Of a stretch of DNA of 64,000 bases, positions 19,223 through 63,611 are shown in pieces (within the stretch, counting starts at the first letter, position 1; the number at the start of each line of letters is the position of its first letter). Origin of the DNA: Acinetobacter sp. ANC 5054 (GTDB taxonomy: Bacteria; Pseudomonadota; Gammaproteobacteria; Pseudomonadales; Moraxellaceae); assembly GCF_002135295.1 (NCBI RefSeq), contig NZ_NEGG01000010.1, forward strand, positions 62,001-126,000, in the 5' to 3' direction. The notes under the pieces are model-generated. The model had not been told where the DNA came from. It made no database searches and was given only the letters and a program-made list of their open reading frames with translations. The translations under genes and the position numbers were made by a program.

Positions 19223-20923
19223 TTAAAAAAGGAAATACCGCTGCGCCATGGGCAACACTTCCGCTGGCTCACACGTTAAATGTACACCATCTGCACGGAC
19301 TTCATAAATCTCAGGATCGACTTCCATCACTGGACAGTAAGTATTTAACTTCATGTTTGCTTTGGAAATATTACGCGTATTCTTACAAGGTGAAATTAAC
19401 TTATTCAATTTCAGCTTTTCTGCAACGCCATCATCAATAGCGGCTTGCGACAAGAACGTAATGCAGGTGTTATGTACACCACGCGGATACGCGCCGAACA
19501 TCGGACGATAATGCACTGGTTGCGGCGTTGGAATAGACGCATTAATGTCCCCCATCGGTGCAGCTGCAATCATCCCGCCTTTGATAATCATCGACGGTTT
19601 GACTCCAAAAAATGCAGGTTTCCAAAACACCAAGTCTGCAAGTTTGCCTTCTTCAACTGAACCAACTTCATGGCTTAGACCATGGGTAATGGCAGGGTTA
19701 ATTGTATATTTGGCGATATAGCGTTTTACACGGTTATTGTCCGAATGCGGTGTGTCACCCTCTAGCGGCCCGCGCTGTACTTTCATTTTATGTGCTGTTT
19801 GCCATGTGCGCAGAATCACTTCCCCTACACGCCCCATCGCTTGCGAGTCAGATGACATCATGGCAATTGCACCCATATCCTGCAAAATATCTTCCGCAGC
19901 AATGGTTTCACGTCGAATGCGACTTTCTGCAAATGCCACATCTTCAGAAATAGCAGGATCTAAATGGTGGCAAACCATCAACATATCCAAATGTTCATCA
20001 ATGGTGTTGATGGTATAAGGACGTGTCGGATTTGTTGAAGATGGCAGTACATTTGACTGACCAATAGCTTTTAAAATATCGGGAGCATGTCCACCACCTG
20101 CACCTTCGGTATGATAAGTATGGATGGTACGGTTTTTAAAAGCGCCTAAAGTTTCTTCTAGAAAGCCACTTTCATTGAGTGTGTCTGTATGAATAGCAAC
20201 TTGCACATCAAACTGATCTGCAACCGTTAAACAATTGTCGATGGCAGCTGGTGTTGATCCCCAATCTTCATGCAGTTTTAAACCGACAACGCCTGCTTTA
20301 ATTTGCTCCGCAATGGGTTCGGGCTGGCTTAAATTCCCTTTGCCTAATAAACCAATGTTCATGGGCAAGTCATCTATGGCTTGCAGCATCGTAGCGATAT
20401 GCCAAGGTCCTGGGGTAACGGTAGTTGCAGATGTACCTGCTGCTGGGCCTGTACCGCCACCAATCATCGTGGTTGTTCCTGACATAAGTGCAGTTTCAAC
20501 TTGCTGCGGGCAAATCCAGTGAATATGCGTATCAATACCGCCTGCTGTTAAAATCTGCCCTTCACCGGCGATGACTTCCGTGGCTGCGCCTAAAGGTATA
20601 GTAATGTTGGGTTGAATATCAGGGTTACCAGCTTTACCTATTTTCCAGATTCGCCCATTTTTTAAGCCAATATCTGCTTTAACAATGCCCCACCAATCTA
20701 CAATTAAAGCATTGGTAATGACAGTATCCGCAACATCATTTGCCAAAAGCTGCGACTGTCCCATACCATCACGTATCACTTTACCGCCGCCAAATTTTAC
20801 TTCTTCGCCGTAGATAGTCAGGTCTTGTTCAACTTGAATAAAGAGCTCAGTATCGGCTAGACGGACACGGTCACCTGTTGTGGGACCAAACATTTCCGCA
20901 TAGGCACGGCGTGACATTTTCAT
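19223..20923 (-). CDS. ureC: Urease alpha (catalytic) subunit
   Basis: A 566-residue UreC. All nickel and catalytic residues are present: H133 and H135 (DTHIHWICP), the carbamylated lysine K216 with H218 (GLKLHEDWG), H245, H271 ([13 protein letters not shown] region), the flap C318-H319 (MVCHHLDP) and D359 (MSSDSQAMG). With UreA and UreB it forms the cytoplasmic Ni enzyme converting urea to ammonia and carbamate. It is the last gene of the cluster, 16 bases after a GNAT gene; AGGAAA precedes the ATG. High conservation contrasts with the AT-rich pair beyond its 3' end. Confidence 0.97.
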
Positions 20924-61255: not shown

Positions 61256-62011
61256 TTATTCTGCTTCAAACTCTTTTAAAACTTTTTCTACAAACCACCA
61301 TGGAAAACGTTGAATCCCATGATTCATTTTCAAAATTTCAGCACGCTCAATTTCTGCAATAAATGATGCTTGCTGTCCATCAGTAGAATTGTCAAAAATA
61401 TAACTTCGATCTGTTACTTCAATTGCTTGCATCAGTAAATCCATACTACGGTAATAGCGTTTACGAATTTTTTGCTCAGGTACACCATGACCGCCTGTTT
61501 GCACACGATACTTTACACGGGAAATATTAATAAGCGGATCGATAGTCGAAACATAATATAAATAGGTTTTAAATCCTTTTCGTTTGGCTTCTCTTAAAAA
61601 CTCTACTTTAGAGATATGCGACATAACTGTTTCAAAAGTAAAACTAATTTTCAAATCAAGAAATTGAAGACGAATATAATCAATTATTCGTGCACAGAGA
61701 TACGAATCAATTTGGTCTGAATGGAATTCGATTTTCCATCGATCTAAAATTATAGGCTCACGCGACATGAGTGGAATCATGTTCCCTTCTGAGGGTCGCT
61801 TTTTTTGTTGTAAAAAATGAATTAATGCTTCTGCATTTAAAGCAGGATGGTAATCAAATAAATTTACACGCTGCGAATGTTTTAATTGTGCTTCTAACTC
61901 ATCCGCATTTAAATAAGCCCCAATATGATGGGGCAATAAATATTCTTTAACTGTACTTTTACCTGAACCATTTGGACCTGCAAACATCCTAATTCGAGGT
62001 TGTGGAGGCAT
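61256..62011 (-). CDS. Zeta-toxin-like P-loop kinase
   Basis: A 251-residue P-loop protein: RMFAGPNGSGKSTVKEYLLP (Walker A), GAYLNADELEAQLKH, SFTFETVMSHISKVEFLREA (the zeta-type substrate-loop) and YLYYVSTIDPLINISRVKYR with GGHGVPEQKIRKRYYRSM, all diagnostic of the zeta toxin family, which phosphorylates UDP-N-acetylglucosamine or related nucleotides. It follows a small gene by only 3 bases, so a toxin-antitoxin pair is likely. The internal insert after DYHPALNAEALIHFLQQ and the C-terminus differ from epsilon-zeta toxins, so a different substrate is possible. Confidence 0.8.
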   Translation of the reverse strand: MPPQPRIRMFAGPNGSGKSTVKEYLLPHHIGAYLNADELEAQLKHSQRVNLFDYHPALNAEALIHFLQQKKRPSEGNMIPLMSREPIILDRWKIEFHSDQIDSYLCARIIDYIRLQFLDLKISFTFETVMSHISKVEFLREAKRKGFKTYLYYVSTIDPLINISRVKYRVQTGGHGVPEQKIRKRYYRSMDLLMQAIEVTDRSYIFDNSTDGQQASFIAEIERAEILKMNHGIQRFPWWFVEKVLKEFEAE

Positions 62012-62014
62012 AAA

Positions 62015-62275
62015 TTAAACCGTTTCTTCTATTTTCTTTTTGCGTTTTAAAATTTGAGGAATTGAATCGAACTGAACAAAGTCTGAAGAGACATCTTTAA
62101 GTTGTATTTCTTGACCATTTTGCAGGCGTTGAACCAATTGCTGACCTTTGACATAAACCACAGCCGATGTTGCACTTGCTTGCTCAAAAGCATGGCGAAA
62201 TGCATGAATTGCAAGATTTGGGATGAGATCATCCTCATACTGACTTGCTTTCATCACTGAAGTATAAGCTGTCAT
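62015..62275 (-). CDS. Small protein upstream of the zeta-like kinase, putative antitoxin
   Basis: An 86-residue protein (MTAYTSVMKASQYEDDLIPN...). The part AFRHAFEQASATSAVVYVKG then QQLVQRLQNGQEIQLKDVSS suggests a helix followed by a small beta segment; the tail is basic (LKRKKKIEETV). No family recognised; not the epsilon antitoxin. AGGAG precedes the ATG. Three bases separate it from the kinase gene, so it is its likely partner or antitoxin. Confidence 0.65.
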   Translation of the reverse strand: MTAYTSVMKASQYEDDLIPNLAIHAFRHAFEQASATSAVVYVKGQQLVQRLQNGQEIQLKDVSSDFVQFDSIPQILKRKKKIEETV

Positions 62276-62502: not shown

Positions 62503-62531
62503 AAAAAAAATAGCCACTTATTCAGTGGCTA
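62503..62531 (-). terminator. Strong minus-strand terminator of a short transcript
   Basis: TAGCCACT (62511-62518) pairs with AGTGGCTA (62524-62531) around TATTC, followed on the minus strand by eight T. No annotated gene ends nearby on that strand, which points to a short RNA or small-peptide transcript just upstream (62532-62650). Confidence 0.85.
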
Positions 62532-62544
62532 AAAGAGAATGACA

Positions 62545-62601
62545 TCAACAAGTTGATGTATCAGGACCACATATACAACAGGACCAGGGATGTCCGTACA
62601 T
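62545..62601 (-). CDS. Possible 18-residue Cys-rich peptide on a short structured transcript
   Basis: ATG at 62599-62601, with AGGA eight bases upstream, opens MYGHPWSCCICGPDTSTC and stops with TGA at 62545-62547. Four of eighteen residues are Cys, with Trp, His and Pro. An 8-bp stem ACATCAAC-AA-GTTGATGT (62542-62559) spans the last codons and the terminator follows 14 bases later. It could be a metal- or redox-sensing leader peptide, a small peptide, or a chance ORF inside an sRNA. A second frame (MLGRLLCTDIPGPVV...) from 62616 is less convincing. Confidence 0.35.
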   Translation of the reverse strand: MYGHPWSCCICGPDTSTC

Positions 62602-62845
62602 AGTAATCGTCCTAACATGGTTATATTAGTGTGACCTGCTTATCATTTTAACCCTAATTCATATCATTTCCTGACAATATGGGTTTTCAATTATGAAGAA
62701 TAAGCAATACATTCAAAACATGCTTATTTTCGTTTTATTTCATTCAATATAAACAATAACGTTTTGGGTCTGATACATCTTGCATATTGAGGCAAATATA
62801 AAAACTTGAGTATCGATCAAAAAACAAAAACTACCGAATCAAAAG

Positions 62846-63238
62846 CTATTTACTGTCAGTTGAACAAAATGCACTTTCATTCAAACCAGAAGATTGCAGA
62901 CTTTCCTGTTGCTGCTGCAAATAATGCTGCGCTGCAAACTGCATCAGATTTGCCATTTCAAGAGTCGCGTTTTCTTGGGAAATTTTTAAAATCTGACGAT
63001 AGGCATTGAGACGAGTACAAAAAGCCTGTGTTTGCTCCTGAGCAGTCGCTGACGATCCTTCAGCATCCAAAATTGTTTTGCTCAAATTGACTTGATCCGT
63101 ATACTGCTGAATTTTTTGATTATATTCAGCTTGCGATAGCTTCTGCACTGATAGCTGTACAGTCTCAGCATGTGCAATAGCGGCAGCACTACAAAGCAAA
63201 GTAAACCAACAATTCTGAAAGATCTTCCTTGATTGCAT
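62846..63238 (-). CDS. Hypothetical secreted protein
   Basis: A 130-residue protein with a Sec signal peptide (FQNCWFTLLCSAAAIAHA, cut before ETVQLS). The mature part is a Gln-rich helical domain (QKLSQAEYNQKIQQYTDQ, FAAQHYLQQQQESLQ) with two Cys (AFCTRL and AFCSTD) that may form a disulfide. Family not recognised. Starts 4 bases after the 122-residue gene upstream, so co-transcribed with it. Confidence 0.75.
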   Translation of the reverse strand: MQSRKIFQNCWFTLLCSAAAIAHAETVQLSVQKLSQAEYNQKIQQYTDQVNLSKTILDAEGSSATAQEQTQAFCTRLNAYRQILKISQENATLEMANLMQFAAQHYLQQQQESLQSSGLNESAFCSTDSK

Positions 63239-63242
63239 CTAA

Positions 63243-63611
63243 TTAGGCCTCATCACCTTCTTTCCAGATATCTTCGTAATCATCTGCGTCAATCATAAAG
63301 CGATAACCAACATCTAGCGCTAAATAAGGCAGCACTTCTGGTGCTAGTTCTTGGAATTTACGGATTGTCATCGTTTCAAAACTCTCCGCACCTTCTAACT
63401 CACCACCATAGATATACCAACTAACATTTTCTTCGCCTTCAGCAGGCTTACGAATACCGACGATTGGGTCTTTATTTAATGTATGTACTGCAACAGCAAT
63501 AACATCGTCACCTTTGACTTCAACATAAGCTGAACCCACTTCTTCACATAATAATTTTTGCTCTGCGATAAGTTCTGCTAAAGGTGATGAATTCTGTGCA
63601 TTTTTGGCCAT
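63243..63611 (-). CDS. Conserved hypothetical acidic cytoplasmic protein
   Basis: A 122-residue, strongly acidic protein without signal or membrane segments. PLAELIAEQKLLCEEVGSAY, then a beta-rich core (VEVKGDDVIAVAVHTLNKDP; VSWYIYGGELEGAESF) and ALDVGYRFMIDADDYEDIWK at the end. I do not recognise the family. AGAACC-type spacing precedes the ATG; the 324-base gap to its right (63612-63935) is AT-rich with nothing else seen. Confidence 0.75.
   Translation of the reverse strand: MAKNAQNSSPLAELIAEQKLLCEEVGSAYVEVKGDDVIAVAVHTLNKDPIVGIRKPAEGEENVSWYIYGGELEGAESFETMTIRKFQELAPEVLPYLALDVGYRFMIDADDYEDIWKEGDEA

Follow-up and report, generated by a model that had tools for sequence, protein, structure and literature searches.

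A predicted small RNA family of Acinetobacter with a conserved tandem promoter box and an exposed C-rich loop

Introduction

On the minus strand of the window (the whole stretch of DNA analysed here, 64,000 nucleotides from Acinetobacter sp. ANC 5054), a hairpin followed by a run of T lies close to a short reading frame rich in cysteine codons, upstream of an antitoxin-like and a kinase-like gene. The locus thereby raises the question of what is made from it. A preliminary description left several answers side by side, namely an attenuator of the downstream genes that would sense metal or thiol stress, the precursor of a modified metal-binding peptide, and a free small RNA (sRNA). We have compared the locus with its homologues in the genus, and the comparison argues for the last of these.

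Results and Discussion

The predicted RNA and its fold

The predicted transcript comprises three hairpins:

62503..62616, minus strand: small RNA of ~114 nt, its 5' end placed from the -10 element and its 3' end from the T-run
62560..62616, minus strand: stem I, with outer arms 62616-62609 and 62567-62560 and an apical stem GGAC/GUCC
62585..62591, minus strand: apical loop AUCCCUG, the likely seed
62542..62559, minus strand: hairpin II, ACAUCAAC-UU-GUUGAUGU
62503..62531, minus strand: intrinsic terminator, an 8-bp stem TAGCCACT-GAATA-AGTGGCTA followed by T8

The segment from 62616 to 62503 has a folding energy of -36.7 kcal/mol, whereas shuffled versions average -21.7 (z -4.65), none of 200 shuffles being as good, and the span given in the preliminary description, 62503-62640, has a z of -3.58 (one shuffle in 200 as good). 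That span misses the promoter region at 62676-62623. The perfect 8-bp stem with T8 that had been announced for the minus strand is indeed found at 62531-62503; the window contains six terminators with a perfect 8-bp stem and T6, so this element alone is not unusual. The same stem had been said to overlap the last codons of the small reading frame, whereas the stem preceding the T-run begins 13 nt past the stop codon, and the one that overlaps those codons is the separate hairpin II (62559-62542).

Distribution of the RNA in the genus

A blastn search of 149 Acinetobacter genomes matched 11, of which nine (including the genome of the window) carry true relatives; the matches in L009 and L010 have only a terminator-like stretch in common with the sRNA. 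The covariance model R1, built from the nine relatives, detected 31 of 175 Acinetobacter genomes at E ≤ 0.01, one of which, G011, was rejected as a homologue on inspection of the stretch concerned. With the model R2, built from 30 loci, 31 of the 175 genomes gave E values up to 7.3e-7 and the next value was 1.9e-3, which leaves a gap to noise, and 80 genomes matched at E ≤ 0.1. Twenty stretches were inspected: that of G069, one of the 31, is real, and 19 weak hits, G011 and a LysM-like coding end (judged by eye) among them, were rejected as homologues. The count of 31 out of 175 is a lower bound, given that stricter filters were applied in the genus searches and only 20 candidates were scored per genome. 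Among 119 genomes from the family there were four weak matches outside the genus, the best with E 0.055, and the plasmid collection searched for the sRNA gave no match.

Two genes lie directly upstream of the RNA:

63243..63611, minus strand: gene for an Imm33-like protein (PF24719; Pfam E 1.3e-29), a conserved syntenic marker
62846..63238, minus strand: gene for a 130-aa protein, the upstream neighbour, with a signal-peptide-like N-terminus (by eye)

Neighbours were counted by blastp with the window proteins over 1.5 kb on each side of the 30 loci, and the relatives have the Imm33-like gene upstream of the RNA in 28 of the 30 and the gene of the secreted-looking protein in 25. The latter protein, for which Pfam and NCBIfam give no family, apparently has two conserved cysteines and pairs conservedly with the Imm33-like gene.

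In a named collection we found 65 loci with the Imm33 gene, 24 of them with a confident RNA, in species that include A. gandensis, A. amyesii, A. guillouiae, A. gerneri and A. bouvetii. Eight more loci carry diverged forms of the RNA, recognized by a box or half box (see below) together with UUCCCU; six resemble that of A. tandoii (L140), and two are the A. rudis pair L109 and L118. The predicted folds of these diverged forms, whose RNA ends are guessed, leave the UUCCC core free in five, nearly free in one and paired in two (L140 and L142). Six weak matches directly follow the Imm33 gene (L110, L113, L114, L123, L126 and L128; E 0.017-0.36), and four of them consist of the terminator only, L110 and L123 also having a UUUCCC word, with the box in none. 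The locus L088, labelled Acinetobacter baumannii ACIN00150, has the sRNA; its label may mismatch the species, the collection holding one genome per species. Judged from these searches, the sRNA family is common to dozens of Acinetobacter species.

Compensatory changes in the hairpins

The structure used for the analysis of covariation was that of the RNA of the window itself, a choice that favours it over versions with slid partners. In the unfitted MAFFT alignment of 30 homologues, 15 of 26 pairs show double changes against 9.7 in shuffles (reached in 1/500), with 63 double-change cells against 21.2 (0/500), a covariation score of 0.318 against 0.190 (0/500) and 38 pair types against 32.6 (8/500). 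When the partners are slid by 1-3 columns, the score falls from 0.318 to at most 0.100. Once the alignment of the 30 is fitted to the model, both partners have changed in 17 of 22 pairs, and the double-change cells amount to 72, as compared with 22.8 in shuffles (0/500). The signal was weaker with the first nine sequences, which gave 19 double-change cells against 8.1 (0/500), eight double-change pairs against 5.7 (23/500) and, for pair types, a result reached in 107 of 500 shuffles.

Of the eight pairs in the outer helix of stem I, four (unfitted) or all eight (fitted) have both partners changed, and the apical stem is paired in 57% of cells in the unfitted alignment and 72% in the fitted one. 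Hairpin II is paired in 92-93% of cells across the 30 homologues. RNAalifold recovers stem I and hairpin II unaided but does not find the terminator in the homologue alignments, because its two forms are shifted in them: GCCAC/GUGGC alternates with CCCGC/GCGGG in relatives, the pairing being kept, with both partners replaced at two pairs in 11 of 30 rows (unfitted alignment).

By sequence comparison, then, the locus is a conserved three-hairpin RNA with compensatory changes, a conserved secondary structure of the kind expected of a base-pairing sRNA. Of the answers offered earlier, the free sRNA is well supported by homologues, covariation, promoter box and terminator. We consider it probable that the locus produces a stand-alone, non-coding and trans-acting small RNA from an activator-dependent promoter.

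The apical loop and its candidate targets

The loop at the tip of stem I follows the consensus WUCCCUR in 29 of the 30 homologues, L036 having a variant. Its five core bases are unpaired in the predicted hairpin loop of 28 homologues (three of the five in L018), and the stem that bears them is free to vary. A loop that stays fixed while its stem varies has the look of an antisense seed, and we read it in this way. The complement of the loop is AGGGA, a Shine-Dalgarno-like word. The exposed loop may pair with ribosome-binding sites of the G-rich AGGGA type in target mRNAs and would thereby block their translation, probably with the help of Hfq; the U-rich 3' end is compatible with binding of Hfq or ProQ, no more.

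A scan of 12 genomes for ACCAGGGA-N2-10-ATG, an 8-base seed, returned 80 places against 23 for the reversed pattern, a difference for which coding bias may account. Four of these places correspond to the complement of the sRNA's own loop, and among the other 76, examined for ORFs of at least 40 codons, no gene recurs in most of the 12 genomes. The start of one gene, which we take to be MFS-like, recurs in two genomes (L274 and L289). The ribosome-binding region of this MFS-transporter-like gene reads ACCAGGGAGG, complementary to the loop, and represents a possible target. A 41-codon frame is hit in three genomes (L209, L227 and L292), the site falls within a longer ORF in two (L228 and L272), and five genomes have the word ACCAGGGAATTTGTTGAATG or one close to it, without an ORF of at least 40 codons. 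AGGGA-type sites were also sought at three gene starts and found at none of 28 for imm33, 25 for the secreted protein and 22 for the plsB-like gene discussed below.

Exposed UCCC motifs are familiar from several sRNAs, namely LhrC of Listeria, RNAIII, RsaE and SprD of S. aureus and FsrA of B. subtilis; in the parts of the reports available to us, such motifs pair with G-rich Shine-Dalgarno sequences, as in the case of the ribosome-binding sites recognized by LhrC, RNAIII and RsaE (PMC4132741, PMC9217828). According to the same parts, LhrC is switched on under cell envelope stress via a two-component system and has three redundant sites, whereas the Acinetobacter sRNA has one such loop (PMC4132741, PMC9217828). 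The comparison with these RNAs was one of the loop motif.

An alternative is that the RNA works through a protein, its loop titrating an RNA-binding protein rather than pairing with mRNAs, which would agree with a very constant loop for which the scans found no conserved target. However, inspection by eye shows no conserved GGA loop of the kind found in CsrA sponges, and loops as rich in C as this one are antisense seeds in other bacteria, as far as the available parts of the reports describe them (PMC4132741, PMC9217828). We regard such titration as unlikely.

A tandem box upstream of the RNA

Two elements precede the predicted 5' end of the RNA:

62639..62676, minus strand: tandem activator-type box TGTCAGGAAATGATATGAATTAGGGTTAAAATGATAAG, two 15-bp units 21 bp apart
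62623..62628, minus strand: probable -10 element TAATAT, seen by eye on alignments, homologues having TATAAT-like letters in the corresponding position

The box has the pattern TGTCAGGAAATGAYA-N6-TGGCAGAAAATGATA and lies ~10 or 20 bp upstream of the -10 region. Homologues carry variants of TGTCAGGAAATGAYATGAAAATGGCAGAAAATGATAAG upstream of the RNA, again as two 15-bp units 21 bp apart, and 27 of the 30 loci reach at least 32.9 bits with a matrix built from them, L026, L033 and L038 matching weakly with lower scores; the box in fact varies less than much of the RNA does. Allowing up to three mismatches, the two-unit pattern stands at the sRNA in 26 of the 31 sRNA-bearing genomes and at three places elsewhere, with none for the reversed control. 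In the named collection, a box unit exceeds the threshold in 30 of the 65 Imm33 loci: 22 of the 24 with confident RNA, the eight diverged forms and none of the other 33.

Measured from the end of the box to the start of the model, the 30 loci fall into two equal classes, 15 with 8-9 bases and 15 with 18-19; no locus lies between these classes, which are one helical turn apart. This helical phase, combined with a poor -35, argues for an activator that touches RNA polymerase. A DNA-binding protein occupying the two 15-bp sites 21 bp apart would then switch the RNA on. Direct-repeat units of this geometry near -35 would, we presume, suit activators of the AraC/XylS type and of the OmpR type. We looked for autoregulation among the OmpR family of the same genome, and the box array is absent from all seven regulator loci (the best score, 9.8 bits, comes from within the region surrounding one of these loci), so that none of the seven was retained as the regulator. 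A consensus promoter scan of the window does not have the sRNA promoter among the sites listed, and its three sites are no excess over the 4.0 in shuffles.

In the genome of the window, the pattern TGNCANNAAAATGNCANNAAAATGNYA occurs at four places against one for the control, and the one-unit pattern (up to two mismatches) at 43 against 23, two of the matches being exact. A further single box, TGTCTGAAAATGACA, is present in L085 (A. sichuanensis) ~458 bp upstream of the imm33 start, and G051 has a place matching it ~1.2 kb upstream of the sRNA.

The box also bears on a different origin of the RNA, by which it would be a 3'-UTR-derived sRNA of the operon formed by the Imm33-like and secreted-protein genes, released by processing without a promoter of its own. 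The RNA does follow the operon directly and shares its strand (the two genes are present upstream in 28 and 25 of 30 loci), and in the window no terminator-like site separates the RNA from the secreted-protein gene, so that read-through into the RNA is possible; moreover, L110 and L123, which have no box, show the UUUCCC word and terminator directly after the Imm33 gene. Set against this, the conserved box and the -10-like element stand between operon and RNA in fixed phase, and the box is kept where the secreted-protein gene was not found (L021, L025 and L035), the Imm33 gene still being upstream. A promoterless 3'-UTR origin thus appears improbable. The UUUCCC word in L110 and L123 (~2330-2430) has short complementary flanks and is followed by the terminator; this element after the Imm33 gene could be an older 3'-UTR form, or due to chance.

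It is very doubtful that the box is a Pho box and the transcript a PhoB-regulated sRNA of phosphate starvation. Its TGNCA repeats, spaced every 10-11 bp directly upstream of the -10 element, resemble the Pho-box consensus; but the pstS-like promoter of the same genome has TCATAAAAG-CGTCATAAAGG repeats instead, and scores -8.3 with the array matrix as compared with 47.5 for the sRNA box, which belongs to the training set. Membership of the PhoB regulon was rejected on this unlikeness.

A possible tie to phospholipid synthesis

One of the two exact matches to a single unit in the genome of the window is TGTCAGAAAATGACA, a palindromic box ~95 bp before an acyltransferase gene (L056, G000:C20:67193-67207). 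This gene has the Pfam Acyltransferase domain PF01553, is divergent from an acyl-CoA thioesterase gene and is, we assume, plsB. At least 14 of the 15 positions of the box are kept in 12 of the 22 genomes inspected (L231-L252), namely in 10 of 14 that bear the sRNA and 2 of 8 without it, a difference short of significance (Fisher p 0.07). The link that the box would make between the sRNA and the plsB-like gene is suggestive, not proven.

The activator that binds the box may also act at the plsB-like gene, which has one copy and would serve phospholipid synthesis. As a tentative extension of this, and one that we hold to be possible though on balance doubtful, a genus-specific circuit of membrane homeostasis might exist, in which the activator of TGTCAGRAAATGAYA sites would drive both the plsB-like gene and an sRNA that silences envelope or transport mRNAs with its C-rich loop. 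If so, the plsB-like gene would be served by one site and the tandem pair used almost solely at the sRNA, and the whole would be a functional counterpart of the RpoE/sRNA circuits of other γ-proteobacteria. The near-private tandem box and the possible tie to phospholipid synthesis add to the interest of the family, and the regulator of the box, that tie and the mRNAs silenced by the loop are testable questions.

Relation to known small RNAs

The sRNA rises above no family's gathering threshold in Rfam, and a known Rfam family was accordingly rejected: the sole sub-threshold match is MicA (RF00078), with 20.5 bits against a gathering score of 41 and E 0.93. Neither TGTCAGAAAATGACA and TGTCAGGAAATGACA nor their complements occur in the open-licence papers searched. 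Titles and abstract openings of the open-licence literature yielded no description of the sRNA, and the main-text parts available of the A. baumannii RNA papers PMC5320573 and PMC12153292 contain nothing matching it. The Acinetobacter family seems real and, as far as searched, undescribed; it adds to the sRNAs of the genus one that was not found in Rfam or the searched papers and has a sharply defined candidate seed.

We take the sRNA Aar of A. baylyi to lie between trpS and sucD. It could in principle be a distant relative, having a similar size in the text available (~103 vs 114 nt) and a C-rich seed in a similar position: Aar has CUCC at nt 29-32, and the present RNA UCCCUG at nt 27-32. In both, one hairpin at the 5' end precedes two at the 3' end, and the CUCC seed of Aar covers ribosome-binding sites, according to the parts available (PMC11472050, PMC12802169). 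Yet the Aar promoter is described there as RpoD-type, whereas this sRNA has a tandem activator-type box and a poor -35; the two were compared by published description, and kinship between them seems very unlikely.

SabS of A. baumannii, which depends on SigAb, is likewise an Acinetobacter sRNA of the stress type that has its own kind of promoter, as far as the available text goes (PMC12153292). The SigAb promoters described in that part have GTCAAC and CGTT elements, from which our box differs (PMC12153292), and a promoter of the SigAb/SabS type was rejected on this difference.

The downstream genes

Beyond the terminator, and outside the RNA, two genes follow:

62015-62275, minus strand: antitoxin-like gene, the downstream neighbour, for which no family was found
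61256-62011, minus strand: zeta-toxin-like kinase gene (Zeta_toxin, Pfam E 3.7e-7)

The distance of some 230 bases stated earlier is accurate: the RNA ends ~228 bases before the antitoxin start at 62275. Position on the same strand, 228 bases upstream, had suggested that the RNA is a leader or attenuator of the antitoxin-kinase genes, and relatives of the pair adjoin the RNA in 8 of the 30 homologous loci. The blastp search over 1.5 kb on each side did not find the pair beside the RNA in the other 22, however, which weakens the claim; a promoter-like site before the antitoxin also speaks against it but counts little, the scan having three sites vs 4.0 in shuffles. With the pair adjoining in only 8 of 30 loci, the RNA can hardly be its attenuator.

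The cysteine-rich reading frame

The frame that first drew attention to the locus is the following:

62545..62601, minus strand: 18-codon ORF MYGHPWSCCICGPDTSTC, judged a chance frame

The ORF and its ribosome site are present as described, with AGGA 8 nt before the ATG. The window has 20 ATG ORFs of 10-40 codons preceded by a Shine-Dalgarno-like site, so that MYGHPWSCCICGPDTSTC by itself proves little, even if it is the only one with at least four Cys. That the RNA is the mRNA of a Cys-rich micro-peptide, metal-binding or the precursor of a modified one, is scarcely credible: an ORF with at least three Cys over the loop exists in one of the 30 homologues, the window itself, ATG frames of any kind cross the loop in eight, in differing registers, and the start codon sits inside stem I. 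The conservation test that had been proposed, Cys codons against stems, decides for the RNA, since frame and Cys are not kept while the stems covary. Sensing of metals or thiols had the Cys codons as its sole basis, and nothing observed supports it. The ORF looks like an accidental frame, seen in the window only, and provides an example of comparison removing a tempting cysteine-rich micro-ORF.

An Rfam match elsewhere in the window

At 20491-20773 the window matches the Rfam family 5_ureB_sRNA (RF02514) with 94 bits (gathering score 40), on the strand opposite an ORF at 19223-20923 that we take to be urease-alpha-like. This match probably reflects conservation of the coding sequence rather than a true antisense RNA.
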